DNA of 44,049 nt from a virus: positions 1 through 44,049 of IMG/VR virus record IMGVR_UViG_3300042731_005931. One strand, 5' to 3'. Positions within the stretch are counted from its first letter, which is position 1, and each line of letters starts with the position of its first letter. Position numbers and translations under genes: made by a program. Below are positions 10,593-44,049 of the stretch, in pieces. The notes below the pieces were generated by a model. That model was not told the origin of the DNA. It did not search any database and was given only the letters and a program-made list of their open reading frames with translations.

Positions 10593-11018
10593 ATGAAAAG
10601 TGGAGTAATTTTTGGTTGCTGGGATTTATATCACGTAGGACATTTACACGCATTACAAGAAGCAGCGAAACATTGTGATTATTTATATATAGGAGTATTC
10701 TCTGACCGTGTAATCAAAGAGTATAAAGGGCATGCTCCAATAGTTCCACAGAAAGAACGGTTAGAGTTAATGAATAGTATAGATTTGAGTGCTTATAAAT
10801 GCAGAGCACTTTCATTTTTAGTAGATTATAGAGAGCCTATAGTTTGGCGAATTTATGATTACTTATTTGTGAGTGAACAGCTAAGAAATAAAGAGCTAGC
10901 AATGATAGACAAGAATAGTGATGGGCAGGTAATCTATGTTCCATACACGAAGGGCATTTCTACATCACATATTAGAAGCAAAATTTTAGATGGAGGATGC
11001 GTTTGTAAATGCAAATAA
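10593..11018 (+). CDS. Cytidylyltransferase (TagD/RfaE-C type)
   Basis: A 141-residue nucleotidyltransferase with all family marks: GCWDLYHVGHLHALQEA (HxGH at residues 15-18), the GVFSDRVIKEYKG block, a YDYLFVSEQ segment and ISTSHIRSKIL near the end. It would couple CTP to a phosphorylated small molecule (glycerol, ethanolamine, ribitol or a heptose). The ATG follows the LicD stop with a GGAGGA upstream. Together with LicD it forms an activation-transfer pair. Confidence 0.88.
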   Translation: MKSGVIFGCWDLYHVGHLHALQEAAKHCDYLYIGVFSDRVIKEYKGHAPIVPQKERLELMNSIDLSAYKCRALSFLVDYREPIVWRIYDYLFVSEQLRNKELAMIDKNSDGQVIYVPYTKGISTSHIRSKILDGGCVCKCK

Positions 11019-11554
11019 CACATTATGAGCAAACTACTAAGGATTTAGTTTTACTAGAGCATGTTGGTAAGCAGAAAAAAACCATGCTGGCTAAAACTGA
11101 CCTTTCAAACGCAATCATTTTCAAACCTTGGGGCTTTGAGTATATGATTATGAATGAAGGAAAATCATGTGGCTGGATGCTACATATTAATAAATTTCAT
11201 GGCACATCTTTTCATTGTCATATGACAAAGCAAACTGTAGTGCTTGTAGTAAGTGGTATGTTATTACTGACTACTTCACAAAAGAAACAATTGATGATGC
11301 CAGGGGATATGGCATATATTGATAAAAAAACTTTTCATATGATGGGCACACATACTAAAGATACACGGGTTATTGAAATTGAAACTCCATCATATAAACC
11401 TGATGCAGTGCGTATCATTGATTTTTGGGGGCGTAAAGGAGAGCCTTATGAATCGCAATGCAAGGTTGTGCATTTAACTAAAAAATCCTCCATAGATGAA
11501 ATAGAGAAGAGAGGGAAGGGAAAGAGGCATAAACCTTCCCTATCCTCTCGTTAA
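11009..11554 (+). CDS. Cupin-domain protein (mannose-6-P isomerase type II-like)
   Basis: A 181-residue protein with one cupin barrel: PWGFEYMIMN, then FHGTSFHCHMTKQTVVLVVS (metal-binding HxH plus following residues), PGDMAYIDKKTFHMM and RVIEIETPS. This resembles the sugar-phosphate isomerase cupins found with nucleotide-sugar pathways. The tail is basic and its coding end contains the terminator hairpin. It overlaps the cytidylyltransferase by ten bases, so the three genes form one cassette. The substrate is unknown. Confidence 0.8.
   Translation: MQITHYEQTTKDLVLLEHVGKQKKTMLAKTDLSNAIIFKPWGFEYMIMNEGKSCGWMLHINKFHGTSFHCHMTKQTVVLVVSGMLLLTTSQKKQLMMPGDMAYIDKKTFHMMGTHTKDTRVIEIETPSYKPDAVRIIDFWGRKGEPYESQCKVVHLTKKSSIDEIEKRGKGKRHKPSLSSR
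11509..11549. terminator. Hairpin at convergent junction of plus and minus operons
   Basis: GGGAAGG (11513-11519) pairs with CCTTCCC (11534-11540), extended by GAGA (11509-11512) with TCTC (11546-11549). It lies at the end of the cupin gene, exactly where the plus-strand early genes meet the minus-strand late genes, so it may stop transcription from both sides. No strong T-run follows. Confidence 0.5.
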
Positions 11555-13276: not shown

Positions 13277-14176
13277 TTAATTACCTCTTACTTTTTCAAG
13301 AGTCATATTCCACGCATAAGCGTTAATAGCACCTTTTATATTATCATAATGAAAGTGCTTGATTATATAGACACCATCCATACAATCACCTAATCCAGAA
13401 ATAGTCACTTCTTCATTATTATTAGACATTTCTGTAATAAATCGCATTTTGTTAGTAAATTTCATATTAAAGCATAATGAGAAATGAGCATCGCTTTCAA
13501 ATGAAATACCGCATAAATCATCTTCACAAGATGCAAATTCTACTCCAGTTAAAACTAAAGGTTGAGAATTAATGCCATCATCATTTACTTCATAATTGCC
13601 AGACCAAAAAGATTTTCGGTCTATATCTTTTACTATTTTGTTATCTTCTCCGCCCCAAATAGGAGCACTTAATAATACTGTATAAGAGTCTCCAGCTATT
13701 GAGAATGTATCACAATCATTACAACTAGAATATGTCACTCTCATTTCAACTTTAGCTATTTTATTTGATGAGGAATGATTTATAGATTGACAATAACATT
13801 GAAAATTTATTATATCGCTCCAAGTCCATTTTATAGGAGCGTTTGTATCATAAGTTATATTAAACCATTCAGACCATGAAGCAGTTGTGCTTGTCCATTG
13901 AGATATATGGTTATCACCATTTCCATTGTCAAATATTGGAATAAGTTGTGTGCGATTATTAGTTCTGTTGCCTGCTCCAGCTTTACCATAAACTCTGAGT
14001 TCAACTGTTTGTATTGCACCTGTAAGAGCAGTAACACAAGTATTAGAGTTAAGAGTCAATATTGAAGCTATGCCTGCTGAAGCAAAATTGGCTAAATTAT
14101 TATCTACCATTCTTTCAGGAAAACCCCAATTTGTATTATCAGTATAACCGTCAAAATAATATGTAGCAACTGCCAT
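13277..14176 (-). CDS. Distal tail / receptor-binding-like protein 1
   Basis: The ATG at 14176 overlaps the preceding stop by one base (TAATG) and is chosen over an upstream in-frame start, giving 299 residues. The beta-rich N-terminal module contains APIKWTWSDIINFQ, a repeat also present in the next gene upstream. The C-terminal domain (RKSFWSGNYEV, LVLTGVEF, then EEVTISGLGDCMDGVYII) is homologous to the C-terminus of 14176-15567, so the two share a tail-associated domain. Cysteines are frequent (CYCQ, CNDC). Confidence 0.65.
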   Translation of the reverse strand: MAVATYYFDGYTDNTNWGFPERMVDNNLANFASAGIASILTLNSNTCVTALTGAIQTVELRVYGKAGAGNRTNNRTQLIPIFDNGNGDNHISQWTSTTASWSEWFNITYDTNAPIKWTWSDIINFQCYCQSINHSSSNKIAKVEMRVTYSSCNDCDTFSIAGDSYTVLLSAPIWGGEDNKIVKDIDRKSFWSGNYEVNDDGINSQPLVLTGVEFASCEDDLCGISFESDAHFSLCFNMKFTNKMRFITEMSNNNEEVTISGLGDCMDGVYIIKHFHYDNIKGAINAYAWNMTLEKVRGN

Positions 14177-15567
14177 TATGCATACTCCAATTCTAATATC
14201 CAATCCATTTTAAGTGGTGCGTCACTTATTTTTTTCCAGCCAAAGCTTATAATTCTGAAGGTGCGGTCATATTCGCTACTTCCACCTACTCCTGATAAAG
14301 TTATTTCGTCTCCAGCTTCACCCATAGCACGAACACATTCAATGTTTGTGCATGAGTCATTTCCATATTGTGTTCCAGATAATACTAAACTTCTGCCCGC
14401 TCTTGATAAACCATAAACAGCTCTATTACCACTCCAAAAATTTAACATTTTAATGTTTTGTCTGTGGTCAAAAGATACTTTTTCGGGTTTGTTCAAAGAG
14501 CAAGTTATTTCTTCATCATAATTAACTTTTGCATATACTTGCGTAGTTCTTATCTCAGGATTAATATTTTCGTTGTAATAGACCACAACATATACTTGTG
14601 TGCAGTATGACCAACAGCCAACAGCTCCAATTGAATCTAAACGCACTCCAGCTTGAAGTGCATCAATATCTGCCCAAGTCCAAGCAATCCCTGTATTAGG
14701 GTTTGTAGTCCAATCATCACTGTATATTACATAATCAGTAGATAGCATATTTTGTGTGCCATTATATTCTGTTCCACCAGTTTTTATAAGTGGTTGTGTA
14801 AAAGGATTTGTGCAATATGCGTTTGCTTTTTTAGCTACTACAAAAACTGAAACTTTAGTTATAGTTCCTGTTTCTGATGAATGATTTTCTAAATTATATA
14901 AATCATATCCTGGATTACTAGCTGCATCTTCAATCCAAGATACCCTTGTAGCATCTCCATCTGAAGTTGTTTCATCTACTAGAGTATAGTTTGTAGCAGC
15001 TCCAAATGTAGAGCCATCAGTATTTCCAAGTGCAGTATTATCTCCAGCAGCATTAGGTCTAATTACTAAGAGTTTTGAAGCTCCCATTATTGTTGGACTA
15101 CTACATTCAATTCCTACTTGTAAATTATCAATATCGCTCCAAGTCCAAGTTGTCGCTGTTCTTGGATTTGTAGTCCATATATTGTCGTATGTTAGATATG
15201 ATGTAATTAAATTAATATCATTTGATTTATAAATATTTCCACATGCATTATCAGTTAATATTATTTTAAAGATACCATTCTGGCTTTGGGCATCAATATG
15301 TGATTTTGCTCTAGCATATACTTGAACATAATTTATAGTTCCTGTTTCTGTAGTATGGTTTGGTAATAAGTATAAATCGTAATTTAAATCAGTAGCGGAG
15401 CTATAGACATATGAAGTATCATCATCAGGATTAAGTCTTGTATCATCTATACATAGATAATTGCTTGGTTGCCCTACAGGAGTTAAAGCTGTATTGCATC
15501 CATCATTAGACGGAGTCAAATATAATTCTGCTCCTTCCCTGATTTGAATAATATCAAATGTTGCCAT
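14176..15567 (-). CDS. Distal tail protein with duplicated beta-sandwich modules
   Basis: A 463-residue protein with two copies of a module of about 150 residues (roughly 35-165 and 185-335). Each has a YDLY-L-NH segment ending in TETGTI or SETGTI, then TWTWSDIDNLQVGI or AWTWADIDALQAGV, consistent with jelly-roll or lectin-like folds. A C-terminal domain (LNFWSGNRAVYGLSRAGRSL, then GDEITLSGVGG) matches the neighbouring protein. The order after the tape measure supports a baseplate or receptor-binding role. Confidence 0.7.
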   Translation of the reverse strand: MATFDIIQIREGAELYLTPSNDGCNTALTPVGQPSNYLCIDDTRLNPDDDTSYVYSSATDLNYDLYLLPNHTTETGTINYVQVYARAKSHIDAQSQNGIFKIILTDNACGNIYKSNDINLITSYLTYDNIWTTNPRTATTWTWSDIDNLQVGIECSSPTIMGASKLLVIRPNAAGDNTALGNTDGSTFGAATNYTLVDETTSDGDATRVSWIEDAASNPGYDLYNLENHSSETGTITKVSVFVVAKKANAYCTNPFTQPLIKTGGTEYNGTQNMLSTDYVIYSDDWTTNPNTGIAWTWADIDALQAGVRLDSIGAVGCWSYCTQVYVVVYYNENINPEIRTTQVYAKVNYDEEITCSLNKPEKVSFDHRQNIKMLNFWSGNRAVYGLSRAGRSLVLSGTQYGNDSCTNIECVRAMGEAGDEITLSGVGGSSEYDRTFRIISFGWKKISDAPLKMDWILELEYA

Positions 15568-20012: not shown

Positions 20013-20936
20013 TTAACTGACTGAGCTTACAATGTTATTACAAGCAGATGGTTTGCAAGTAAATGGGCTAGAGTTCATTATAGCTTCTCCACTTGTGTCT
20101 GCTGTTGCACTTGCATTTTTCCACTCACAGTTTGGAAGTGTGATACGTGGACAGCCAGAGCCTCCCATATCTATTTGAAGTGTAAATGCAGTATTAGCAA
20201 GAACTTCTCCAATATGAGCAGCACCGCCCCCATCTAGTGAAATATCAACTGAGCCTTCAATATCCATATCACCCTCTGTTAAGAATGATTTGTATAATGA
20301 ATCATGGTCTGTATATCCATTTAATTTATGTGATACAGTTATTTCAATTGAGTTAGTGATAAATGCGATGTGGTCAGTATTGACAACTACTCCGCCTGTT
20401 TTTGTAATTTCTCCAGCAATGTTAAATGCAAGATAAGCACCTGTTAAAGCACTTGGAGCACTTCCAGTCGCAGATGTGCTTGTTACAATAGAACGAGCTT
20501 CAAAATCAATTACTACAAGATATTCTGTATTTTTAGAGCCAGAAATTCTTACAGTAGCAGGTTTTAATCCGTCTACAAGATAGTAACTAACATCATCACT
20601 GTCAGCTTCGTTTGTATTCATGCCAATACACATAGTCAGTGATTGTAATGTGCACTCTGAAGAGCGGTCAATCACATCATCTATTAATGTATCATCACAT
20701 TGCGGAATGTATTCTAAATGCACTTTTGGCTCATGTGTTTGTTTTAACAAGTGACATGCTAAAGGTGAGCCTATATCTTTTAACACTTTATGTCTATCAC
20801 CTGTATCTACCCTAACATTTTGTATTTTGCATGAAATAGGCAATGTTGCGGTGCTTGTATCAGCAGTTCCATAACTTGATTCTAGCCAATACCATGCAGT
20901 CCCTTGAAAGGGTTTTCCTAATTGGTCTAAGGTCAT
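20013..20936 (-). CDS. Major tail (tube) protein
   Basis: A 307-residue beta-rich protein with GxxL and acidic turns (GDMDIEGSVDISLDGGG), a helix-poor composition and a C-terminal cysteine-containing segment (CEWKNAS, CKPSACNN). Its position between the neck proteins and the G/GT chaperones is diagnostic of the tail tube protein in siphoviruses. Eleven or so cysteines are unusual for a tube protein. Confidence 0.75.
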   Translation of the reverse strand: MTLDQLGKPFQGTAWYWLESSYGTADTSTATLPISCKIQNVRVDTGDRHKVLKDIGSPLACHLLKQTHEPKVHLEYIPQCDDTLIDDVIDRSSECTLQSLTMCIGMNTNEADSDDVSYYLVDGLKPATVRISGSKNTEYLVVIDFEARSIVTSTSATGSAPSALTGAYLAFNIAGEITKTGGVVVNTDHIAFITNSIEITVSHKLNGYTDHDSLYKSFLTEGDMDIEGSVDISLDGGGAAHIGEVLANTAFTLQIDMGGSGCPRITLPNCEWKNASATADTSGEAIMNSSPFTCKPSACNNIVSSVS

Positions 20937-23504: not shown

Positions 23505-24839
23505 TTAGGCTGGATTGACTACGTGCCCAATTGCGTTTGTATCTAATTCACCAATAGCGACATATGCCCATTGGTCAATACGATAGCTGTTACAGTTGGT
23601 TTGGAAGAATTTATAGGTTTTTGGTTTTTGTCCAAAGACACAACCTACTGCTCTTCGTGAATCAATGACAATTGCAACTTCTTGGTTAGCCAAGTCAGTG
23701 CAAGAGTTAGCTCCGCAATATTCAATGACTTTTAAGCCAGCCATCTTTTTCAGTCGCCCTTCATCATCAAAGGAAATATCTCCCATCCAAGGCATAGGGG
23801 TAGGGGTTTGCATTCTCTTGAAGATTGCAGCGACAGTTGGACTAAGAATCAAATAGTCAGGATTATACGGGCTAGTTCCTTCTCTCATACTAGCGACAAG
23901 GTTATGTATAGCGTTATATAAATTAACTAATGAAGCATCAGTGCAACAGCTTCCGCTAATACTTGGTGTGCAGCTTAAATCAGCAGGTAAAGTTTCTGTA
24001 GTTCCAGGCGTGGCTGTCTCTAGTTCAGAATAAATTTGTGCATCAAACCATTGTGCCCAAGAAGCAGCCATACTTTTTAGATATGAATCCATTAGAATAG
24101 AGCCTACATCCCAAATATCCTTGTCACAGACTATTGCTTCAAGGTTGTATTGTTTAAGAGTTAAGCTGTATGTGCTGAAAGATATACTGGCACAAGAAGC
24201 ACATTCACAAGCACCTAAGCTTGATGGGTCTCCAAATGAGCCAAAAGCTCGAATTTGAACACCTAGACCTTGTCCAGGATTTATAGAAATTCCCTTGACG
24301 CAAATTCTCATCAAATCAGCAGTGCAAACGAAAGTTTCCCAAACAATTTTGGCATACACATCATCAGGACTCCAAGATGAAACTACATCATCACAACCTG
24401 AATCAGAATTTGTATTGCCCCAAAGTCCGTCAAGTCCACATTCTTTCCACTGTTGGTCTTCGTAAATTTGAAATCGCATTTTCTCTGCGGTTTCTCTTTT
24501 GTTGATGTATTGAGATTTAGTCTCAAACTCTTCGTTACGTTTCTTGTAATTTTGATAAAATTTAACTTGTGGTGCATTTTCAATATTTTGTTCTTCGCCT
24601 TTCTCTCCAATTTCAGGTTTTGGTCTGTGTTCAGGGTGTTCTTTAAAGTATTCTTCTTGCCATTGCTCTTTTAGTTTAGCTTCTTCAGCTTCTTTTTCTA
24701 ATCGAGCTTCTTCTAGTTTTTCTTCCTCAAGAGCAGCTTGTTTCTTTTTAAGGTCTCTTAATTTAATTTCTTTGTTAAGAGACTCTTCATATTCTGCTAG
24801 CTCTTCTTCAGACATTTCGTCTATTTTTTTATCGGTCAT
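23505..24839 (-). CDS. Major capsid protein (HK97-like) with N-terminal scaffold-like region
   Basis: A 444-residue protein. Residues 1-100 are a highly charged coiled coil (SEEELAEYEESLNKEIKLRD and onward), like a delta/scaffold domain removed on maturation. The rest has HK97-type features: a spine-like GVQIRAFGSFG, the E-loop-like cysteine-rich segment, PDYLILSPTVAAIFKRM and a late VAIVIDSRRAVGCVFG block. The globular part holds many cysteines (ACECASCAS, SGSCC, CGANSC), which is uncommon for a capsid and may mean disulfides or metal clips. It follows the putative protease gene as in HK97-type heads. Confidence 0.85.
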   Translation of the reverse strand: MTDKKIDEMSEEELAEYEESLNKEIKLRDLKKKQAALEEEKLEEARLEKEAEEAKLKEQWQEEYFKEHPEHRPKPEIGEKGEEQNIENAPQVKFYQNYKKRNEEFETKSQYINKRETAEKMRFQIYEDQQWKECGLDGLWGNTNSDSGCDDVVSSWSPDDVYAKIVWETFVCTADLMRICVKGISINPGQGLGVQIRAFGSFGDPSSLGACECASCASISFSTYSLTLKQYNLEAIVCDKDIWDVGSILMDSYLKSMAASWAQWFDAQIYSELETATPGTTETLPADLSCTPSISGSCCTDASLVNLYNAIHNLVASMREGTSPYNPDYLILSPTVAAIFKRMQTPTPMPWMGDISFDDEGRLKKMAGLKVIEYCGANSCTDLANQEVAIVIDSRRAVGCVFGQKPKTYKFFQTNCNSYRIDQWAYVAIGELDTNAIGHVVNPA

Positions 24840-31706: not shown

Positions 31707-31958
31707 ATGACTAAACAATGTAAAAGATGCAGATGTAACTTTAAACCTAACAGTAATGCACAAAAATTTTGTTCCGATTGTGCCTATATTGTAAATCTTG
31801 ATAAAGCTAGGAAGTCAGCTCAGAAAAAGAGGCAAAAAACAAATGGCACATTTGGAGCAGACCCTATAAAGAAAAACGGTAAAATTAATTTTGAAGCAGA
31901 GCATAGAGCTATTAAAAGAGAACTGATTAGAATAGGATTAAGGAAAAATTATGCTTAA
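31707..31958 (+). CDS. Small zinc-finger basic protein (83 aa)
   Basis: The ATG at 31707 is chosen because the zinc module then begins the protein: CKRCRC and FCSDC about 15 residues apart form a zinc ribbon of the kind seen in replication initiators, followed by a Lys/Arg-rich tail. It overlaps the primase-helicase gene by eight bases, so it may assist replication initiation. Confidence 0.65.
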   Translation: MTKQCKRCRCNFKPNSNAQKFCSDCAYIVNLDKARKSAQKKRQKTNGTFGADPIKKNGKINFEAEHRAIKRELIRIGLRKNYA

Positions 31959-34164
31959 TATTCCTAAACAACTTCAAGATAAAAAATTTCGTTTTATTAA
32001 AATCAATCCTAAAACTAAAAAACCAACTGAAAAGGATTGGGCATTAGATAACAATTATCGTTATAACGAAAAAGAATTTATGCAATATTTAAAATCTGCT
32101 AAAAGTTATGGAGTAGTTTGTGGTTTTGGTAACTTAGCCATAGTTGATATTGAAAATATTGATGATAAGTCCGTAGCTAATTTAGTGATGCAGCATAAAT
32201 TCCCTGAAACTTTTACAGTGCAAACAGGAAGTGGAGGATGGCATCTTTATTACTTTGTAAAAGATATTAATAAAAGAATCCGAATTACTACAGATGAACA
32301 ACACTATGGAGAAATACAGTCAAAAGGGAATCAATGCCTTGGTGCTGGCAGTGTGCATCCATCTGGAACTAATTATGCAATTATTAATGATAGTCCAATT
32401 ACAACTGTGACTAAAAAACAACTTTTAGACGTATTAAAAGGTTATATTGCAGAGGATAAAGATAAATCTAAATTTGTAGATAATTCTATAACTGGTCTTA
32501 ATTGGAACATTTCAAAATTATTAAAATATTGTCCAGATTTAAAAACTAAAGATGATGTTAAATTTCAAGGCTCGCATCCTACACACGGTAGCACTGGAGG
32601 ACAGAATTTTGAAATAGACTTGGATAAGAATACTTGGTATTGTTTTAGATGTGAATGTGGCGGAGATGCAATTAATTTAATAGCAATGTTAGAAGGATTA
32701 GTTAAATGCACTGATGCATGCCCATCTAAGCAAAAATTTAGAGAAATTTTTAAAGAGGCTAAAAAACTAGGAATTAAAAAATATGGTTTTAAAAGCGATG
32801 ACTATAAACCTTCAAAGCAAAAAATACAGAGCACAGATAAATGTCCTGATTTGTTTGTTTGCAACAACAAGGGGCGTATTATTGGCAAAAATATAGAACG
32901 AGTAGTTGAGTGGTTTATAGCTCGTAATCCAACAGTTGCAATTGAAAGTATGGCAGGTAAAGGCACTCATATTTATGTTTACAGAGATGGCTATTATAGA
33001 ATTGATGGGCAGAACATTATTAGAGCTTTTATAAAAAAACAATTTAAGTTGCAAAATCAATTATGGACTTCTGGATATGAAAATGAGATTATAAACTATA
33101 TAATGACATTTAATGTTAAATCAAGAAAAAATTTTAGTGCACCAAAAAAATTAATTAACTGTGGTAATGTAACCTACGATTTAGAACGACCTAATAAACC
33201 CTTGGAACATTCTCCAGAACATAATTTTTTGTATAAAATTCCTTGGAATTATTCTAAAAAAAATAAGAAATTAACTCCAGAATTAAGGAATTATTTTTTA
33301 TCCACTTTTGATAACAATAAAGAAATAATTAATTTAGTTCAAGAATTATTTGGTTATTGTCTTTATTCAGGTTATCCATTTGCAGGAATTTTTTATCTTT
33401 ATGGAACTGGAGGCAATGGTAAAAAAGTATTTACTGCATTATTAGAAGCATTGCTTGGCGAGGATAACGTAGCTAGTGAATCTCTTAACTCTTTAGTGTC
33501 TCGTAGATTTTCTACTGCACAACTTTATGGTAAGCTGTTAAATTCTTGTGGTGAACTTTCAAGTAAAACGCTACAAGAGAGTGATTTACTTAAAAGTTTG
33601 AGTAGCGGAGATAGAATTACTGCTGAATTTAAAGGTTTAGATGGCTTTACTTTTTTGAATGTGGCTAAAATTGTAACAGCTTGTAATGCTATACCGAATG
33701 CTTATGATACATCTTATGGATGGTATGATAGACAGATTGTAATACCATTTATACGTAAATTTAGATACTCTAAAGAAGAAGATACAAATTTAATAGAGAA
33801 GCTTACAACTAAAAAGAATATGGAAAGCCTCTTATCTTGGGCAATAGAAGGATTACATAGATTACTTAAAAATAATGGTTTTACTTATCCATCTAATAGA
33901 GAAGAAATTTATAAAATGTATCAAGGAAATGCAAAATACTTTGTAAGTAATTTTTATACTAGAAGTAAGGATTATAATAATTATGTTAAAGTAGAAGATA
34001 TAAGAAAAGATTATTTAATATGGTGTAAGAAAAACAATATTCCAGAGGATAGTGAAGTATCTCTCGGAAAAGCATTTAGATACTTTGAGCTTCCATCTGC
34101 GGAATGTATAACGCAGAATAATAAAAAAATTTATGTCCGTTATGGATTAAAAAAGGTGAATTAA
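31951..34164 (+). CDS. Primase-helicase (AEP primase plus SF3/D5-type ATPase)
   Basis: A 737-residue replication protein. The N-terminal prim-pol domain has AIVDIENID (metal-binding acids near residues 65-72) and GSGGWHLYYFV. A zinc segment, HPTHGSTGGQ followed by NTWYCFRCECGGDAIN, is at about 205-235. The C-terminal helicase has a D5_N-like region and an SF3-type ATPase: GTGGNGKKVFTALLEALLG (Walker A, residue 485 on), SCGELSS (Walker B region) and VTACNAIPN (sensor/motif C). The residue after the Walker A lysine is Lys rather than Ser/Thr. It likely opens the origin and primes PolA. Confidence 0.88.
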   Translation: MLNIPKQLQDKKFRFIKINPKTKKPTEKDWALDNNYRYNEKEFMQYLKSAKSYGVVCGFGNLAIVDIENIDDKSVANLVMQHKFPETFTVQTGSGGWHLYYFVKDINKRIRITTDEQHYGEIQSKGNQCLGAGSVHPSGTNYAIINDSPITTVTKKQLLDVLKGYIAEDKDKSKFVDNSITGLNWNISKLLKYCPDLKTKDDVKFQGSHPTHGSTGGQNFEIDLDKNTWYCFRCECGGDAINLIAMLEGLVKCTDACPSKQKFREIFKEAKKLGIKKYGFKSDDYKPSKQKIQSTDKCPDLFVCNNKGRIIGKNIERVVEWFIARNPTVAIESMAGKGTHIYVYRDGYYRIDGQNIIRAFIKKQFKLQNQLWTSGYENEIINYIMTFNVKSRKNFSAPKKLINCGNVTYDLERPNKPLEHSPEHNFLYKIPWNYSKKNKKLTPELRNYFLSTFDNNKEIINLVQELFGYCLYSGYPFAGIFYLYGTGGNGKKVFTALLEALLGEDNVASESLNSLVSRRFSTAQLYGKLLNSCGELSSKTLQESDLLKSLSSGDRITAEFKGLDGFTFLNVAKIVTACNAIPNAYDTSYGWYDRQIVIPFIRKFRYSKEEDTNLIEKLTTKKNMESLLSWAIEGLHRLLKNNGFTYPSNREEIYKMYQGNAKYFVSNFYTRSKDYNNYVKVEDIRKDYLIWCKKNNIPEDSEVSLGKAFRYFELPSAECITQNNKKIYVRYGLKKVN

Positions 34165-34364: not shown

Positions 34365-34625
34365 ATGGGGAAATGTAATAATTGTGGAAAAAAAATTGAG
34401 TATAATAAATTCAAAAGATACCGTAAAAAAATTCTTTGTTATGAGTGTTACGATACTCGATTAGAACGCAAGAAAGTTAAAAAAGACGCTGCTGAGTTAG
34501 CTGCAAAGAATGAAGAAGAACTGCAAAAGAAAACTGAAGAGTTTGCATTAGCGAATGGTGATTTAGCCGAGCCTATAGATATGGACAGTGGTAAAGATGA
34601 GCAGCCAGAAGAATCAGAGGACTAA
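34365..34625 (+). CDS. Zinc-ribbon protein with acidic tail (86 aa)
   Basis: CNNCGKK (residues 4-10) and CYEC (about 25-28) form a zinc ribbon, followed by a basic patch, a Lys/Glu helix and an acidic end. It starts directly after the upstream stop. It is one of three consecutive tiny zinc-ribbon genes before cysteine synthase. Confidence 0.65.
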   Translation: MGKCNNCGKKIEYNKFKRYRKKILCYECYDTRLERKKVKKDAAELAAKNEEELQKKTEEFALANGDLAEPIDMDSGKDEQPEESED

Positions 34626-34758
34626 TCAAGCTCCTATTTGTGCTGAATGTAAAAAGAGGATAGAAGTTTTTGAAAAATATGCTAAAAATGATAAAGATGG
34701 AACAATTCTTTGTAAAGCATGTTTTGATGAATTAAGGAAAAAAGGAGTAATAGCATGA
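34597..34758 (+). CDS. Small zinc-ribbon protein (53 aa)
   Basis: It overlaps the upstream gene end by 29 bases and shares an ATGA with the next start. CAEC and CKAC separated by about 22 residues form a zinc ribbon resembling that of the preceding gene, suggesting duplication. Confidence 0.6.
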   Translation: MSSQKNQRTNQAPICAECKKRIEVFEKYAKNDKDGTILCKACFDELRKKGVIA

Positions 34759-34946
34759 GTAAAGAAAAAAAAGAGGCAATATTTTATTATTTAGAAGTTC
34801 TTAATGAAACTGAGCAACTTATGATTTTTACAACTAAAGAAGAAAAAATAGGCATAGACTTAATATTAAATACTGCATTACCTATTGAAATACAGAATAT
34901 TCAAATTAATAAAAAAATAACTAAACTTTTAGAGGCTAAGGAATAA
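34755..34946 (+). CDS. Hypothetical protein (63 aa)
   Basis: Not recognised. Alpha/beta pattern (EAIFYYLEVLNETEQLMIF, then IGIDLILNTALPIEI). ATGA overlap upstream; TAATG overlap downstream. Confidence 0.5.
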   Translation: MSKEKKEAIFYYLEVLNETEQLMIFTTKEEKIGIDLILNTALPIEIQNIQINKKITKLLEAKE

Positions 34947-35077
34947 TGCAGAAATGCCCTATTTGTAAGGGTAAAATGCTTTGGGTAGAACACACTCTTG
35001 TTTGCCCCAAGTGTAATAACTTTTTACTTAGAGTTTTAAATTGGCAAAAAAGGTTAATTAATGAGCATACTAAATAA
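34946..35077 (+). CDS. Tiny zinc-ribbon protein (43 aa)
   Basis: CPICKGKM and CPKCNN, 17 residues apart, make a minimal zinc ribbon. It overlaps the cysteine synthase gene by 17 bases, so the two are co-expressed. Confidence 0.6.
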   Translation: MQKCPICKGKMLWVEHTLVCPKCNNFLLRVLNWQKRLINEHTK

Positions 35078-36017
35078 TATAGGCAATACGCCTTTAGTAG
35101 AAATAAAGAAAATTTGGAAATCTGAAGATGTGCGTATCTTTGCTAAAGTCGAAGGTATGAATCCAGGAGGCAGCATTAAAGACCGTATAGCTAAAGCAAT
35201 GATTCTTGATGCAATAAAGAAAAAACAATTAAAGCCAGATATGGAAATCATTGAAGCTACATCAGGCAATACAGCAATCGGAATCGCTATGGTTTGTGCA
35301 GCCTTGGGGCGTAGATGCACGCTAGTAATGCCTAATAGTGTATCAAAAGAACGAGCACAGATATGCAGAGCTTATGGAGCTAATTTAATTAAAATTAAAG
35401 GTAACATGGACAGAGCTATTGCATATGTTGAAGAAATGCTTGAAACTTATAGAGAAAGGGGCAAAGGACATTTACTTTACAATTTAAATCAATTTGATAA
35501 TCCTATGAATTGGAGAACACATTTCCATAATACTGCTCCAGAAATATGTGAACAATTAATGAAACAGTTGTATTGGACAGGTTATTATTCTCCTAATCCA
35601 ACTCATTTTGTAGCTGCATGTGGAACTACTGGAACTATAGTAGGATGCTCTAAAAAATTTAGAGATTATTACTTACGTATAAAAAGTTCACCATATCCAG
35701 AAGAAATACGAACTTATGTGCATGCTGTCTTTCCAAAAAAAGATAGCAAGATTCAAGGGCTTAAAAATCTTCAATTCTCTCGTATGCCTAAAATTTATGC
35801 TCCAAGATTAATTCATGGTTATAGCTATGCTAATGATGCAGAAGCTTTTGCTATGACTAAAAGACTGGCTAGAGAAGAAGGGCTATTTTGTGGTATATCA
35901 AGCGGTGCTGCAATGGCTGAGGCTGTTAAACTTGCTAAGACTGTAAAGTCAGGAAGCTTTATAGTTGTTATATTGCCTGATAATGGGTATCGCTATTTAT
36001 CTGAAAAGGTGTTTTAA
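35061..36017 (+). CDS. Cysteine synthase (PLP-dependent, CysK/CysM type)
   Basis: A complete 318-residue fold-type II PLP enzyme. The Schiff-base Lys is Lys40 in NPGGSIKDRIAKAM, the substrate loop is TSGNT (67-71), NQFDNPMNWRTHF follows, the phosphate-binding loop is GTTGT (188-192), GISSGAA is at 278-284 and the end is PDNGYRYLSEKVF. It makes cysteine from O-acetylserine or O-phosphoserine plus sulfide; the residues that separate these substrates cannot be decided by eye. It is intact and in an operon of cysteine-rich genes, so a functional viral metabolic gene is likely. Confidence 0.93.
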   Translation: MSILNNIGNTPLVEIKKIWKSEDVRIFAKVEGMNPGGSIKDRIAKAMILDAIKKKQLKPDMEIIEATSGNTAIGIAMVCAALGRRCTLVMPNSVSKERAQICRAYGANLIKIKGNMDRAIAYVEEMLETYRERGKGHLLYNLNQFDNPMNWRTHFHNTAPEICEQLMKQLYWTGYYSPNPTHFVAACGTTGTIVGCSKKFRDYYLRIKSSPYPEEIRTYVHAVFPKKDSKIQGLKNLQFSRMPKIYAPRLIHGYSYANDAEAFAMTKRLAREEGLFCGISSGAAMAEAVKLAKTVKSGSFIVVILPDNGYRYLSEKVF

Positions 36018-36235
36018 TGAAAATAATAAAAGAAGTGAAAATTAAGAAAGAAGAATTTTTTTATTTGGAAGTGTGTTGCAAAGATTTTAAAGATTTATAT
36101 TACAATTTTTCAGTGATTACCTTAGATGGTGAAGGAAAGTTATGTATTGGAGCACAGAGCGAAGCTAATCACAGTTTTTATAGAAAAATAAAATATTGTC
36201 CTTTTTGTGGAGAAAAAATAGAGGAAGCGAAATGA
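36017..36235 (+). CDS. Small CxxC protein (72 aa)
   Basis: Beta-rich N-terminal part (EEFFYLEVCCKDFKDLYYNF) and a C-terminal CPFCGEKI knuckle. It starts on the last base of the cysteine synthase stop and overlaps the next gene by four bases, so it belongs to the same operon. Confidence 0.6.
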   Translation: MKIIKEVKIKKEEFFYLEVCCKDFKDLYYNFSVITLDGEGKLCIGAQSEANHSFYRKIKYCPFCGEKIEEAK

Positions 36236-36978
36236 TAGAATTAAAAGATTTAGGATTGAGTCCAAAAGATTATAGAAAAGTGAAAAATTGGCTAAATAAT
36301 TTTGTAGCCCATTTCACAAATAAAGCTGAAGGTGCAAAAGGAACAGTTGAGCGATATGACCTTGAGAATTTAGATTTCTTCTATTTCACTGATTGTAGAG
36401 ACGTGCTTAATAAGCATCCTGAAAGCAAAGGGCAAGAGGACAATAAAAAAATTATCAGGCGTAAACGTGCAGTAGAGTATCAATTAATATTTCGTAGACT
36501 CTTAGGTGAGCAATTAGGAAAGAATCGTCCTTGCTCTCATTGTGGTAATGGCTATCGCTGGATTAATTCCCTTGGAGATGGCACAGGGCATTATATTTAT
36601 TGCCCCAAGTGTGCAATGACTACGGTAGTTACTTATCCTGATGGCTATAATACTTGTATAGATAGAATTAAACAAGATATTACAAATAATGTAAAACAAA
36701 TCGTGAATAAAAATTTTAAAATTACTGGAGAAAAATTACACGTTAAACAGGAATACGAAGAACAAAAGCCTGTTTATGGAACTCCAGTAATAACCACTAT
36801 TGAAGATAGATATGAATCTGGAACACAGAATAGTTTAGGTGAGCCAATAGATGAAGATATGGATAAAAAGCCTAAATTACCTAAAGAGCCTCCATTGAAA
36901 ACAATTTCAGGATTCTTAAAGAAAAAGAAAAAACGATGCACAGGGGATTGCCAGAACTGCGAAAGGCATCTGTGCTAG
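36232..36978 (+). CDS. Zinc-ribbon protein with second cysteine cluster (248 aa)
   Basis: ATG at 36232 (ATGA overlap) is chosen over a longer form. A central ribbon (CSHCGNGYRW and YCPKCAM, about residues 100-130) and a C-terminal CTGDCQNCERHLC cluster are joined by a Pro/Lys-rich linker. The N-terminus is helical (DYRKVKNWLNNFVAHF). The rubredoxin- or transcription-factor-like ribbon may bind nucleic acid. No family recognised. Confidence 0.6.
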   Translation: MIELKDLGLSPKDYRKVKNWLNNFVAHFTNKAEGAKGTVERYDLENLDFFYFTDCRDVLNKHPESKGQEDNKKIIRRKRAVEYQLIFRRLLGEQLGKNRPCSHCGNGYRWINSLGDGTGHYIYCPKCAMTTVVTYPDGYNTCIDRIKQDITNNVKQIVNKNFKITGEKLHVKQEYEEQKPVYGTPVITTIEDRYESGTQNSLGEPIDEDMDKKPKLPKEPPLKTISGFLKKKKKRCTGDCQNCERHLC

Positions 36979-38700: not shown

Positions 38701-38789
38701 TAAAGATTATAGTCAAAGGCATCAAGGAAGTAATTCAAGCATTGGAGCAATTTAGAGAGCATACTGAGAAATTACGGAGGATTAAATAA
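38697..38789 (+). CDS. Very small helical protein (30 aa)
   Basis: A single amphipathic basic helix (EVIQALEQFREHTEKLRR). ATGA overlap upstream and TAATG downstream favour translation. Function unknown. Confidence 0.4.
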   Translation: MIKIIVKGIKEVIQALEQFREHTEKLRRIK

Positions 38790-38917
38790 TGAGCATGCCA
38801 GAACATAATCCAAAAGAAGATATTTGTGAGCATACTGATTGTCCACATTACAATAATTGCAAATTTAAACACAATTATGCAGCATGTTTTAAAGCTTCTT
38901 TTGGTAACTGCGTCTAA
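38789..38917 (+). CDS. Tiny cysteine/histidine-rich protein (42 aa)
   Basis: CEHTDCPHYNNCKFKH has three Cys and three His in 16 residues, with two further Cys near the end, a probable zinc site. TAATG-coupled to the upstream gene. Confidence 0.55.
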   Translation: MSMPEHNPKEDICEHTDCPHYNNCKFKHNYAACFKASFGNCV

Positions 38918-38930
38918 AAGAGGTTAAAAT

Positions 38931-39092
38931 ATGAGATGCCCTGTTTGTGGTAGAAAATTATATGAGATAAATCCTCCTGGTGGAGAATGGGTATGCTGTA
39001 AAGAATGTCCTGCAAATCAAAATAATGGTTGCTGTGCATTAACAGAATATTATGGAACTACTCAAAAAGAAATCAATAAACAAAAAATATAA
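38931..39092 (+). CDS. Tiny cysteine-rich protein (53 aa)
   Basis: CPVCGRKL, then CCKECP and GCCAL, seven cysteines in 35 residues. AGAGG lies upstream. It is the last of the Cys-rich mini-gene run. Confidence 0.6.
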   Translation: MRCPVCGRKLYEINPPGGEWVCCKECPANQNNGCCALTEYYGTTQKEINKQKI

Positions 39093-39117
39093 AGGAGTAA
39101 ATTTAGAGGGGATAAAA

Positions 39118-39207
39118 ATGAATGTAGAAACTGTAATAATAGTATTCATTGTTGGGATATGTGGGGCTATAATTGTATCGCATATCATTGATAAATATTT
39201 ATTTTAA
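39118..39207 (+). CDS. Single-pass membrane peptide (29 aa)
   Basis: Almost the whole product is one transmembrane helix (TVIIVFIVGICGAIIV) with a short polar tail. AGAGGGG lies upstream. It ends the plus-strand operon before the non-coding region. Confidence 0.45.
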   Translation: MNVETVIIVFIVGICGAIIVSHIIDKYLF

Positions 39208-39951
39208 AAATTATACAGCATTCAAAAATTATACAGTTAAAAGTTAATCAATAGTGCCCAGCATTTTTATTTTTTGCGGGGAATATTTAAAACTTTATAA
39301 AAATCAATTTATATTATTAATTATATATTAATCAATAGATAAAAGTTGAGCGATATTTTTATTTGCTTTTTAATATATAAGTATAAATATAGAACTATAA
39401 TTTGTTCAATTTTTATTTTTATATTAATAAACATATAATATTGCTTTTATAATTTTATAATTATATACAAGAGGGAATAGAATTACTATTATTTCTATTC
39501 ATTAATTAGTATAATATAATAAGTATTTTAGAATAAATATTAATTAGTTTTATATTCCTTATTTTATATTACGTATTACTATATTAGTATTAAATATTAT
39601 GCATTGTATATTGCTATTAATATATTAATATGTAATACGTATTAATAATTAAATATTGCCCTCTAAATAATTATCTCTAAATAATATTTATTCAGCATCA
39701 AGGTATATATAAGCTTTGTTTAATAAAATATAAATAAGATTGTTTATTGCATGCTAAATAAAAATAAACGCATCAAGGTTAATGTAATGTATTGCGTGTT
39801 ATAGACTAAAAGCCAGAATGGCTTTAAAATTTTTTATAAGCGAATCGAATAATAATAAATAACATATTATGATTTATATAATAATGTGCTATAATTAATC
39901 TTGGTGCTTATATCTTTAACTATGAATTAAAAGAAAAAAATAAAAAGAGAT
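39208..39951. other. AT-rich non-coding region (possible origin/control region)
   Basis: No convincing gene. It is extremely AT-rich with runs of TATTAATATATTA type. It holds GCATCAAGGT at 39695-39704 and 39770-39779 (a third, GCATCAAG, at 40365-40372), one GCCAGAATGGC copy and a GCATGC site. Long AT tracts with short direct repeats fit a melting region or replication origin. Confidence 0.45.
39806..39836 (+). terminator. GCCAGAATGGC hairpin followed by T-run
   Basis: AAAGCC, loop AGAAT, GGCTTT, then AAAATTTTTTATA. The dispersed motif here has the form of an intrinsic terminator, far downstream of the mini-gene operon. Confidence 0.45.
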
Positions 39952-40125
39952 TTATTTTAGATAGAAGATTTTTCTTGCATGCTTAGCATTAAATTTTAAT
40001 TTATCCTTCTGCCATCGAGTTTTTATTTTACGCTCTCTTTTTTCCTTCTGCATCCATTTAAGCTCGTTTATAAGATAACGAATTTCAAAGAGAACATCAA
40101 ATATTTTTCTTTGTGCTTTATCCAT
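39952..40125 (-). CDS. Possible small basic protein (57 aa)
   Basis: It opens MDKAQRKIFDVLFEIRYLIN and continues with a strongly basic helix (WMQKEKRERKIKTRWQKDKL). It has no ribosome site, but TTTATATC on the minus strand lies about 25 bases upstream of the ATG, fitting a leaderless archaeal-type promoter. It is the only minus-strand gene outside the late block, so it could be an early regulator, or not a gene. Confidence 0.4.
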   Translation of the reverse strand: MDKAQRKIFDVLFEIRYLINELKWMQKEKRERKIKTRWQKDKLKFNAKHARKIFYLK

Positions 40126-40280
40126 GCATAACAGTATAAACAACAGATATAAAAAATTGTTGGAATAATGTCAATGTGTAACTATGTCATTATGCTTATT
40201 TTATCGTTTTGTTAAAATAGCAATTAATATATTTTAACACCAAGATTTTAAATAGCATGAGCAACAGATATATAATTAAT

Positions 40281-40340
40281 AATAAAGCCTATCCGACTCT
40301 CTTTAGGGGTGGTTGCCTTGGCAGCCCGTGATGCTTTATT
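40281..40340 (+). ncRNA. Compact structured RNA candidate
   Basis: AATAAAGC (40281-40288) pairs perfectly with GCTTTATT (40333-40340). Inside are GGTTGC/GCAGCC with a CTTG loop and ACTC/GGGT around CTCTTTAGGGG, together a possible three-way junction. It stands out by its GC content in a non-coding AT-rich stretch. The strand is not determined. Confidence 0.4.
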
Positions 40341-40390
40341 GTTTTAGTATCATACGCAAAAAACGCATCAAGTGTTAACTTTATTCGTGC

Positions 40391-40410
40391 TTGCCTCTTT
40401 AGGGGGGCAT
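40391..40410 (+). ncRNA. Second hairpin sharing CTCTTTAGGGG
   Basis: TGCCTC pairs with GGGGCA around a TTTAGG loop. The 11-base CTCTTTAGGGG is identical to that in the structured element 96 bases upstream (40299-40309), suggesting a duplicated RNA or protein-binding site. Confidence 0.35.
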
Positions 40411-40573
40411 ACGTGCCTTAAACTCGATTCAATCTTTAATGCCAAGGCTGTAAGATTTAGATTAACTAAAAGTCTTAGATACCATATAAAATAAAACACC
40501 TTTCGTATTTTTTTCTACAGCTCTAAATGTGTTTTTCGCATTTGAGCGGAAATTTAAATATGGAGGTAAAATT

Positions 40574-40660
40574 ATGAAAAAAGAAGGATATAAATTAAGC
40601 AGTGGAATGCTAATATTTTATTATGGTAATCGAGCTTTAAAAAATAAGGAGGTCTATTAA
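40574..40660 (+). CDS. Tiny protein (28 aa)
   Basis: GGAGG sits upstream with good spacing. The product ends KNKEVY because its last codons form the ribosome site (AAGGAGGTCTATTAAATG) of the next gene. Possible leader peptide or coupling ORF. Confidence 0.4.
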   Translation: MKKEGYKLSSGMLIFYYGNRALKNKEVY

Positions 40661-40807
40661 ATGAAGAATGAAGTCATAGTAACTGTAAAATTTAGATATG
40701 ATAAAATTAAAGGGAAAAATAAACAGTATTATAAAAATAAAGCTTTTGATGAAATATATAATTCTGATGATACTATACATACTTTTGATGTTAAGGGGGT
40801 CTATTAA
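40661..40807 (+). CDS. Small hypothetical protein (48 aa)
   Basis: Basic beta-like protein (MKNEVIVTVKFRYDKIKG). It ends DVKGVY, since its tail again encodes the following ribosome site (AAGGGGGTCTATTAAATG), nearly identical to its own. Confidence 0.45.
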   Translation: MKNEVIVTVKFRYDKIKGKNKQYYKNKAFDEIYNSDDTIHTFDVKGVY

Positions 40808-40900
40808 ATGAGTGCTGGCGATAAAATCGGGTTATTATTTAGTCTAGCTTATGGGGTAATTTATCCTATAGGACTCTTTATTTATTTTGGTATCTTATAA
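40808..40900 (+). CDS. Single-pass membrane peptide (30 aa)
   Basis: Mostly one hydrophobic helix (IGLLFSLAYGVIYPIGLFIY). Start abuts the upstream stop. A clear terminator follows. Confidence 0.45.
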   Translation: MSAGDKIGLLFSLAYGVIYPIGLFIYFGIL

Positions 40901-40908
40901 AAAATAAA

Positions 40909-40938
40909 ATAGGGGCAATTACCCCTTAATTTTTTTAG
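40909..40938 (+). terminator. Intrinsic terminator
   Basis: AGGGG, loop CAATT, then ACCCCTTAATTTTTTT. A GGGG/CCCC stem plus a seven-T run ends the three-gene mini-operon. Confidence 0.65.
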
Positions 40939-41037
40939 ATTTCATGGTTATAAACTGCATGCCTGCCGAAATAAAAAAGCTGCATGCTTAAACTCATTTC
41001 TTTTTTTGTTTGCATTACACATGTAATGTGTATGTGC

Positions 41038-41046
41038 TTATATAAA
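41038..41046 (+). promoter_or_regulatory. TATA-like promoter (TTATATAAA)
   Basis: It is centred about 26 bases upstream of the ATG at 41068. GGAGG at 41053-41057 also fits as a ribosome site, so transcription may instead start earlier. Confidence 0.4.
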
Positions 41047-41067
41047 CTTTATGGAGGTAAATAAAAT

Positions 41068-41184
41068 ATGTTTGCATCAATGGGAATAGAAGCAATCAAT
41101 GCATGCATAAAATATGCATATAATGAGAGTTTTAAAGATGAACAAAATTTTTCTAAGATGTTTTTAGAGGTCAATAATGGATAA
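41068..41184 (+). CDS. Tiny protein (38 aa)
   Basis: MFASMGIEAINACIKYAYNE then an acidic-basic helix. GGAGG lies ten bases upstream. It overlaps the next start by eight bases. Unknown. Confidence 0.45.
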   Translation: MFASMGIEAINACIKYAYNESFKDEQNFSKMFLEVNNG

Positions 41185-41338
41185 AAAAACGAAGAAAAAA
41201 ATTAAAAAATATAGTATTGCTTTTTTAATTGGACTCTCTTTTATATTATACAATTTATTATTGTTTGCATCCACTATTATTGGCATGCAAAATAGTAATA
41301 AATTAAATATGGTTAATAAGAAAAAAAGAAAAAAATAA
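41177..41338 (+). CDS. Small membrane protein with basic ends (53 aa)
   Basis: Lys-rich N-terminus, one transmembrane helix (IAFLIGLSFILYNLLLFA) and a KKKRKK tail. Topology like small holin or antiholin-type peptides. Function unknown. Confidence 0.5.
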   Translation: MDKKTKKKIKKYSIAFLIGLSFILYNLLLFASTIIGMQNSNKLNMVNKKKRKK

Positions 41339-41416
41339 AACTCTATTTATTTTTATAAAGTCAGCATGCACCTTTAAAGTGTGTGTTGACGTAAAAATAT
41401 CTATGGAGTGAGAAAT

Positions 41417-42262
41417 ATGGTATCGCACCAAGAAGTAATATATAACTATTTTAATGCTGGAGATAGGCAACACTATAATAAAGGCAATAATGTCTTTTTT
41501 GAAGGCGACACTTTATATAGCTATGGAACGTATTTTATTTTAGCCCAAAAAATAAAAAACGGTTATTTAATTAACGGTGATTCTTACAGTAAGAGCACTT
41601 CTGAACATCAAAGGATAGTTAGATACAATATGCCAAGCAATAACATAATAATACCCCTTAGTGCTTTATTACAGCCTTTAAATGACATGCAGATAAAAGA
41701 CATTGAGATTTTAGACCGCAAAGAGGACACATATGACACTGTCGAAAGAGTAAATAGTGAGGGTAATAAATATATGGCTACTATACATCATTTAGGAGCA
41801 TCACTTTTTAAATACAAATCTAAGTATTTTTTAAGTGGGATTGATAACTCAAGTAAAAACTATGCTTATTATCTTATTTTGCTTAAAAAGCCAGCTCAGA
41901 CAGTCGAAGAGGCATTTAGACAGTTAGCGGGGAATCTAACAGATGAGGAGTATAAAGATTATTTACAGGGCATTATTAAACGTCAAGGTGAATATTTTTT
42001 AATACCTTCAAAACTCACAACAGCACAACTAAAACGCATGGATGCAATAACACCACGTAAAATAAAACATGATGTTGACCTATCCAAAGGGGTAGGTAAT
42101 GCACATATAGCCAAGGATTTAATTAAAATGTCTGATGGGCTGTATATTAGACGTTCTTTAAGACACCGAGAACACCGCATGATAAGCCTTAAAAATACCT
42201 GGCATAAAGTAGTAAAAAATATTCAAAAAAACTCCTGGAGTGCTGACGGTAGAATAGATTAA
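41417..42262 (+). CDS. Conserved phage protein of unknown function (281 aa)
   Basis: ATG 41417 has GGAG eight bases upstream. The N-terminal half has GNNVFFEGDTLYSYGTYFIL and SYSKSTSEHQRIVRYNM, motifs shared by a large uncharacterised family in phage genomes (GNxxFxxxTxYSYGxHF, then STxxHxxxV). The C-terminal half is helical and basic (RRSLRHREHRMISLK). The Ser/Thr-His pattern could be catalytic, but no function is known to me. Confidence 0.7.
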   Translation: MVSHQEVIYNYFNAGDRQHYNKGNNVFFEGDTLYSYGTYFILAQKIKNGYLINGDSYSKSTSEHQRIVRYNMPSNNIIIPLSALLQPLNDMQIKDIEILDRKEDTYDTVERVNSEGNKYMATIHHLGASLFKYKSKYFLSGIDNSSKNYAYYLILLKKPAQTVEEAFRQLAGNLTDEEYKDYLQGIIKRQGEYFLIPSKLTTAQLKRMDAITPRKIKHDVDLSKGVGNAHIAKDLIKMSDGLYIRRSLRHREHRMISLKNTWHKVVKNIQKNSWSADGRID

Positions 42263-42342
42263 AACCGCCTCCATTCCTTCTTTTATTTTTTAGATTTATT
42301 ATTTTTATCATTAATTTTTATTAGTTTTATAAAGGTGAAATT

Positions 42343-42453
42343 ATGGAAAAAATTATATGGATATGTAGAAATAAAAAAGCTTGCACGCTCCAAGGTGCTA
42401 AAGGAGAGCCTATGGAGAGCTGGAGCGTTTTTTCGGACTCTCCGACAAAATGA
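42343..42453 (+). CDS. Possible small ORF ending in SPTK (36 aa)
   Basis: AAAGGTGAA lies upstream of the ATG and the frame ends at the first CCGACAAAATGA repeat. Most of the ORF is occupied by a strong inverted repeat with T-run (42385-42433), so it may be leader RNA rather than protein. Confidence 0.35.
   Translation: MEKIIWICRNKKACTLQGAKGEPMESWSVFSDSPTK
42385..42433 (+). terminator. ACGCTCCA/TGGAGCGT inverted repeat with T-run
   Basis: ACGCTCCA (42385-42392) pairs perfectly with TGGAGCGT (42421-42428), followed by TTTTTT. It may be a terminator or attenuator for the gene at 41417. A second small hairpin, TCGGA-CTC-TCCGA, follows. Confidence 0.5.
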
Positions 42454-42679
42454 GCACTTTAATTTTTAAAGACGCACCGACAAAATGAATGATTTTTTAT
42501 ATTTAAGGAGGTAAATAAAAATGATAATAGTTGGACTATTAGATAGTATAGAGGCTGCTGAGCAGGTAAAACAAGTAGCAAAGTTTCACACAATCGGACA
42601 AAGAGCCAGGTATCTAAGCCGACAAAGTAAGAAACGCACCGACAAAATGGACAAAATTAAGAGTGCTCCGACAAAATGA
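42442..42679 (+). repeat. CCGACAAAATG(A) repeat cluster
   Basis: Five copies start at 42442, 42477, 42619 (one mismatch), 42639 and 42668. Copies 1 and 5 share CTCCGACAAAATGARCACTT; copies 2 and 4 share ACGCACCGACAAAATG. In three cases (42451, 42477, 42677) the ATGA is a stop after ...PTK codons. Confidence 0.7.
42521..42679 (+). CDS. Small basic protein ending in SAPTK (52 aa)
   Basis: AAGGAGGT lies upstream with ideal spacing. It opens MIIVGLLDSIEAAEQVKQVA, then becomes very basic (RYLSRQSKKRTDKMDK), with its last third lying in the CCGACAAAATG repeats. The N-terminal helix may be a small regulatory protein. Function unknown. Confidence 0.5.
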   Translation: MIIVGLLDSIEAAEQVKQVAKFHTIGQRARYLSRQSKKRTDKMDKIKSAPTK

Positions 42680-42709
42680 ACACTTAGAAATTGAGCAGAA
42701 GGAATGCAT

Positions 42710-42925
42710 ATGAAAGTAAATAAAACACAAGTAGAAGAAATAATGGATTTAATCCATGAATGGTCTGATTACGATGTCAGTGTGATAGGTTACCATGACT
42801 ATGAAATTGTGCCTATCATTCCTACAAACGTAATGCCAGATTTAATCACAGAGGTAAACAAAATACTTAAATCACAAAACAAAGTTTGGTTAAAGTTTAA
42901 AAAACTTTTTAGGTTATGGAGATGA
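42710..42925 (+). CDS. Hypothetical protein (71 aa)
   Basis: ATG 42710 is chosen (AGAAGG seven bases upstream). Alternating helix and strand (VEEIMDLIHEWSDYDVSVIG) with a basic aromatic C-terminus (WLKFKKLFRLWR) that could contact membrane or nucleic acid. Not recognised. Confidence 0.55.
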   Translation: MKVNKTQVEEIMDLIHEWSDYDVSVIGYHDYEIVPIIPTNVMPDLITEVNKILKSQNKVWLKFKKLFRLWR

Positions 42926-42929
42926 TATT

Positions 42930-42998
42930 TTGCAAACTTTTCTACCATATGCAGATTTTGTTAAAACTGCAAAATGTTTAGATTATATTTGGAGGTAA
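42930..42998 (+). pseudogene. Relic of an MSMEG_6728-like gene (N-terminal fragment)
   Basis: From TTG 42930 the frame reads LQTFLPYADFVKTAKCLDYI and stops at 42996. The motif MQTFLPYxDFxxSAxxLD is the characteristic opening of MSMEG_6728/pyrimidine-dimer-glycosylase-like proteins, which normally run to about 130-180 residues. Here only the first 22 remain, and the last codons double as the GGAGG site of the next gene. It is either a decayed gene or a reused leader ORF. Confidence 0.5.
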
Positions 42999-43002
42999 AA
43001 AT

Positions 43003-43862: not shown

Positions 43863-44049
43863 ATGAAAGAAGAAGAGTTAGAGCAAGTGCTTTTAAAGCA
43901 CAAAAAATGGTTGAATGATAAGGCTGGAGGACAAAAGGCTAATTTGCGGAATGCTGATTTGCGGGATGCTAATTTGCGGAATGCTGATTTGCGTTATGCT
44001 GATTTGTGTCATGCTGATTTACGGAGTGCTGATTTGTGTCATGCTGATT
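43863..44049 (+). CDS. Pentapeptide-repeat protein, N-terminal part (3' end cut by window edge)
   Basis: It starts at ATG 43863 with GGAGG eight bases upstream. The opening [20 protein letters not shown] followed by [13 protein letters not shown] is the usual lead-in of phage pentapeptide proteins. About nine repeats follow to the window end. The frame matches the gene at 1-405, so it is almost surely the same gene across a circular junction. Joining the ends without overlap would create a stop (GAT TAA), so the true sequence must overlap or contain more repeats. Confidence 0.85.
43941..44049 (+). repeat. Terminal copy of the pentapeptide tandem repeat
   Basis: Bases 43971-44049 equal bases 1-79 except one (G for A at the position matching base 56). 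This is the signature of a circular or terminally redundant contig broken within repeats. Confidence 0.85.

Follow-up and report, generated by a model that had tools for sequence, protein, structure and literature searches.

The window is a 44,049-bp IMG/VR record of an uncultured tailed virus. Besides terminase, portal, tape measure and tail tube genes and those for a family-A DNA polymerase and a primase, it encodes an intact and conserved viral cysteine synthase, a fold-type-II enzyme dependent on pyridoxal phosphate (PLP). The reading we favor, at a probability of about 0.55, is that a CysM-type synthase supplies cysteine during infection. That the gene encodes an active PLP-dependent enzyme of the CysM type is itself predicted with considerable confidence from the following features and comparisons.

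An intact cysteine synthase gene

35061..36017, plus strand: CysM-type cysteine synthase of PLP fold type II, 318 aa (PF00291, solved relatives, tree)
35178..35180, plus strand: codon of Lys40, the predicted PLP Schiff-base lysine (SIKDR), found in every alignment row covering the site

The reading frame starts with ATG and is free of internal stops. The Pfam PALP profile (PF00291) matches residues 4-307 over profile positions 2-295 of 295 (E = 2e-66), and PHROG 11528 matches as well (E = 1e-67). The original prediction held that the PLP, substrate-loop and phosphate-loop motifs are intact, and all of them are indeed present: SIKDR with Lys40, TSGNT (67-71), Gln144 within NQFDNP, the phosphate loop GTTGT (188-192), GISSGAA (278-284) and PDNGYRYLS (306-314). 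The single correction concerns residue 72, directly after TSGNT, which is Ala in the window and in the related contig G001 but Gly in nearly all relatives. The hallmarks of fold type II, namely the lysine of S(I/V)KDR, TSGNT, the glutamine of QFxNP, SSGxA and a glycine-rich phosphate loop, are all found. The synthase reaches none of the NCBIfam equivalog cut-offs, its best match being the cysKM subfamily (277.9 bits vs a cut-off of 344) and its score for cysM being 261 bits (cut-off 394); this bears on the fine naming of the enzyme, not on its fold. Among the synthases of the relatives, pN is 0.25-0.30 and pS is 0.64-0.81, the latter mostly saturated, and pN well below pS indicates purifying selection on the synthase.

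The synthase belongs to the CysM side of the family

In trees of 39-41 sequences, an analysis that had been called for earlier, the synthase groups with CysM and not with CysK. The CysM/CysK split is supported at 98/93 without long branches and more weakly when these are kept. The viral clade (100/100) nests among enzymes with an IQGLKN loop, which form a separate, supported branch on the CysM side. The synthase also shows features of that side: GTTGT, a short loop without the SPVLSGGxPGP insert, and a basic residue at the position of Arg210/220/297. Its best solved relatives are CysM of Salmonella (2jc3) and E. coli (2bhs), the latter 37% identical. These two and the M. tuberculosis CysM (3dwg) share with it the short loop with a basic residue, GTTGT and the full-length fold; unlike the window enzyme, they have Arg where its IQGLKN loop has Lys, and the window enzyme lies below the cysM equivalog cut-off. 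A fold search with an AlphaFold model (pLDDT 72.7) retrieves the cysteine-synthase superfamily, with O-ureido-L-serine synthase as the top match and CysM scoring almost equally. Identity as CysK was rejected, as the GTGGT loop and the KIQGIGAGF loop with its insert are absent and the tree disagrees.

The cellular neighbors in the tree are standalone CysM enzymes or the N-terminal halves of ~780-aa fusions of CysM to cysteinyl-tRNA synthetase (CysRS); they belong to the same phylum as a Syntrophorhabdaceae MAG (G012). Their CysM domains show ~42-45% identity to the viral synthase in blastp, and up to 50% in the genome search, and carry an IQGLKN(L/M) loop; the standalone enzymes of this phylum are the sister group of the viral clade. 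The viral synthase differs from these relatives in being standalone, without the CysRS part, and in lacking the C-terminal CALCPP tail of the standalone cellular enzymes. Its nested position among cellular enzymes indicates that it derives from a cellular metabolic gene. The cellular sampling comprised the G012 phylum, three further genomes (two actinobacterial, one Rubrivivax) and plasmid and phage collections; given that sampling, finding the closest relatives in this phylum is no proof of a donor. A capsid homologue, sought as a prophage trace of the host, was absent from 395 genomes of the phylum in a search run without a positive control, and we take the GC content of the window, 32%, to be no obvious fit to this phylum. 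Matches in Acinetobacter "phages" look like bacterial contigs, their neighboring genes being host genes. One of these records, L052 (CAKLQH020000014.1), has housekeeping genes around its cysM and looks misfiled as an Acinetobacter phage.

Among the genomes sampled from the G012 phylum, CysM-CysRS fusions seem common (L193, L192, L194, L196, L197, L199-L201, L203, L204 and L206). Their frames span ~765-836 aa; the domains (PF00291, tRNA-synt_1e, DALR_2 and CysS_C) were confirmed in L193 (79-2394, minus strand), the only fusion that was domain-scanned, and the others are recognized solely by length. A literature search on such fusions gave nothing specific. The frequent fusion to CysRS in the nearest cellular relatives links these enzymes directly to the cysteine used in translation.

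Lys235 and the choice of substrate

35763..35765, plus strand: Lys235 codon, within the IQGLKN loop; the residue lines up with Arg210 (enteric CysM), Arg220 (M. tuberculosis CysM) and Arg297 (A. pernix OPSS)

The CysK enzymes in the alignment have no basic residue at this position. Arg210 in OASS-B has been linked to the choice of O-phosphoserine in some organisms (PMC3805590), and the CysK of T. kodakarensis, an inferred O-phosphoserine user, has Lys there (PMC5120207); C. jejuni CysM does not use O-phosphoserine (PMC9855970). Lys235 at this selecting position favors O-phosphoserine use, and we predict at roughly even odds that the window synthase accepts it. Against this, a basic residue by itself is insufficient: enteric CysM, which has Arg at this position, counts as an O-acetylserine enzyme. 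The loop that holds Lys235 (232-246) has a pLDDT below 50 in the AlphaFold model.

A replaceable gene in the replication operon

31951..34164, plus strand: primase-polymerase/helicase (Prim-Pol, CHC2-like zinc, D5_N, DUF5906), the conserved operon start
34365..34625, plus strand: 86-aa C4 zinc-finger protein, dksA/traR-like, below the Pfam cut-off, 74-85% identical in relatives
34588..34758, plus strand: 56-aa CxxC...CxxC zinc-ribbon-like protein, start codon uncertain
34755..34946, plus strand: conserved 63-aa protein (LNETEQLMIF), with homologues in G001, G003, G004, G005, G007 and G011 and a similar one in G010
34946..35077, plus strand: 43-aa zinc-ribbon-like protein (two CxxC pairs) whose gene immediately precedes the synthase gene in G000, G001 and G003
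36017..36235, plus strand: 72-aa Cys-rich protein downstream of the synthase, with a similar one at the same place in G004
36196..36978, plus strand: protein of 248-260 aa with CxxC pairs, start probably 36232, with homologues in G001, G004, G005, G007 and G010

The synthase had been described as lying among tiny zinc-ribbon genes, and small CxxC genes do flank it on both sides. Among the window ORFs shorter than 130 aa, 30% (13/43) contain CxxC, vs 9.8% (66/673) in background viral contigs (P = 3e-4, Fisher test). A consensus-only scan for terminators gave a single terminator-like site, at 35093-35081 in minus orientation. The plus strand showed none from the primase to the synthase, which fits a single operon.

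Close relatives of the synthase were not found in viral contigs by a single-protein scan; they came to light through related viruses, located with terminase and capsid as queries, and through an alignment. Synthase homologues are present in G001 (62% identity), G010 (61%), G003 (58%) and G011 (57%, partial at a contig end), and G005 has a separate, divergent PALP gene (31%). The order primase, zinc proteins, synthase is common to G000, G001, G003 and G011, whereas in G005 and G010 the synthase overlaps the start of the DNA polymerase gene instead. A PALP gene is thus seen at one of two replication-operon sites in five other contigs of the group, and among those longer than 34 kb only G004 is without one. 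At the same place G004 (42 kb, perhaps incomplete) has a sulfotransferase-family gene (PF13469, E = 3e-9), adjoined by the 43-aa protein with two CxxC pairs; this gene is L039 18603-19253. The slot holds a Cys-rich protein in G005 and nothing in G007. Because the contents differ among related viruses, this is best seen as a cargo slot. Moreover, the G005 PALP falls elsewhere in the tree. The group thus acquired PALP genes on at least two occasions, although the long branch of G005 calls for caution here. As an auxiliary gene should, the synthase lies between viral genes, and related viral contigs have it in the same operon. As a metabolic gene it is accessory and replaceable, not essential. 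No serine acetyltransferase, sulfur-carrier or partner gene is known for the virus.

Elsewhere in the window, LicD-like, cytidylyltransferase-like and cupin genes stand in a row at 10014-11554, conserved in G001, G003 and G004, and may modify a surface glycan. The two window ends (1-260 and 43930-44049) share a 15-bp pentapeptide-repeat array, and a circular or permuted genome was thus probably opened within this repeat during assembly. In the long AT-rich stretch at 38735-43000, clear genes are sparse and small possible ORFs numerous.

Cysteine content and cysteine demand

23505..24839, minus strand: probable major capsid protein, 15 Cys (gene order, N-terminal coiled coil; no Pfam match)
20013..20936, minus strand: tail tube protein, 9 Cys, 5 of them invariant (PF18906 Phage_tube_2, E = 5e-7)
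13277..15567, minus strand: two distal-tail-like proteins from overlapping ORFs, 10 Cys each, function by position only

The proteome was predicted to be Cys-heavy, and a frequency check agrees: Cys makes up 2.0% of the window proteome vs a mean of 1.21% (sd 0.47) across 65 IMG/VR contigs, which were selected because they share a ribosome-binding-site pattern; 5 of these are as high. The seven relatives range from 1.7 to 1.9%. The virion proteins are rich in cysteine too, as had been proposed, with 15 Cys in 444 residues of the probable capsid protein, 9 in 307 of the tail tube and 10 in 463 and 10 in 308 of the distal-tail-like proteins; the tape measure protein has no Cys in 949 residues. 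The probable capsid protein, so assigned partly because its gene follows terminase, portal and a probable protease, reaches 3.4% Cys, as do 2.5% of the background ORFs of 250-600 aa. In eight viruses, 12 of its 15 Cys are invariant vs 45% of all positions (P = 0.005, hypergeometric), which is only mild evidence because Cys is conserved in general. The protein contains CECASC and SGSCC motifs. Its cysteines could serve in disulfide or metal stapling; the AlphaFold model (pLDDT 48.7) is too poor for disulfide geometry.

Does the gene serve to raise the cysteine supply for the virus's own proteome, as originally proposed? The intact synthase and the Cys-rich proteome agree with this idea, but a causal link is only partly supported. 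G004 is equally Cys-rich (1.90%, with 15 Cys in the capsid protein) although it has no cysteine synthase, and cysteine synthases occur in viral contigs of ordinary Cys content, namely Lactococcus phage P087 (1.11% Cys, from the 50 kb read) and MT835718 (1.36%), as well as in the fragments L057 (0.70%) and L058 (1.45%). These results indicate that demand does not require the gene. Cys demand may favor it, and whether cysteine supply is its main benefit we regard as evenly balanced.

How the synthase may act and what else it might do

In the proposed mechanism, the synthase would be made alongside the replication genes. PLP would be held by Lys40, an aminoacrylate would be formed from O-phosphoserine (favored by Lys235) or O-acetylserine, and the addition of sulfide would yield cysteine. 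Cysteine would thereby stay available for translating the zinc-ribbon proteins and the Cys-rich proteins of the virion even if the host provides too little. Serine acetyltransferase (CysE) is feedback-inhibited by cysteine, and it would be bypassed if O-phosphoserine is accepted. A more far-reaching picture, in which a tailed-virus family combines a disulfide-stapled, Cys-rich virion with its own O-phosphoserine synthase that bypasses serine acetyltransferase, placing cysteine under viral control during virion production, seems quite unlikely as a whole.

The enzyme might instead be mainly degradative or act in exchange, so that host cysteine gives off sulfide and the redox state or the sulfide level changes. 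A redirection of host sulfide had also been suggested at the outset, and for phage cysK it is the published view: a review, summarizing work on Lactococcus lactis and its phage, lists the gene under "sulfide production from cysteine degradation" (PMC12713726). The PDB relatives of the synthase include an H2S-producing enzyme. We nevertheless consider this unlikely, as the P087 enzyme is a true CysK from another branch, the virus itself consumes much cysteine, and the frequent CysRS fusions of the nearest cellular relatives point to synthesis. It is improbable, too, that the synthase is another beta-replacement enzyme (e.g. S-sulfocysteine, cystathionine, cyanoalanine or O-ureidoserine synthase) whose product is not cysteine: the sequence ranking and the tree favor CysM, and GTTGT and IQGLKN match cellular CysM-type enzymes, some of them CysRS-fused, although the top fold match is O-ureido-L-serine synthase, at a score close to that of CysM, and no equivalog cut-off is reached.

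The variable slot (synthase in G000, G001, G003 and G011, a sulfotransferase-family gene in G004, a Cys-rich protein in G005, nothing in G007) also raises the idea that the gene is cargo carried along in a hot spot, hardly affecting fitness. With catalytic positions kept and pN well below pS at ~60% identity, and with PALP genes gained at least twice in the group, this seems no less improbable than another beta-replacement product. A non-catalytic role, e.g. through binding to a regulator or to serine acetyltransferase, as known for CysK of several bacteria, is very improbable; moonlighting of CysK is established for the family, but here the catalytic residues are retained, no partner gene was found, and the CysE-CysK complex is, as far as we know, a property of CysK, whereas the window enzyme is of the CysM type. 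A CysM-type synthase supplying cysteine during infection is the reading we retain.

Comparison with known systems

Viral cysteine synthases are already known, and the window adds a case, a variant lineage and a testable substrate prediction. They are usually read as sulfur-cycle genes; the present one comes from another branch, and its Lys suggests a different substrate. Moreover, one member of this Cys-rich group has another gene in place of the synthase, and a comparison of genomes with and without the synthase can test self-supply for the capsid. Viral cysK has been reported in trench and seamount sediments and in jumbo phages; these metagenomic genes, set beside the window synthase by description, are cysK in other viruses. 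With respect to the virion, the closest parallel is the disulfide-stabilized Agrobacterium phage Milano, in which 1.4% Cys was called significantly high (T4 0.9%, A511 0.7%) (PMC10491603). Milano shares with the window a Cys-enriched proteome and Cys-enriched structural proteins, which in Milano form a disulfide network (PMC10491603); disulfides were seen there, whereas the window virion is known from its genes. The best-known phage case of the enzyme is the putative cysteine synthase of Lactococcus phage P087 (Teubervirus), likewise a phage-borne PALP protein of equal size encoded among small genes and 39.7% identical to the window synthase. The P087 enzyme, however, is a CysK near those of Firmicutes, on the other side of the tree, and the window synthase comes from another branch.
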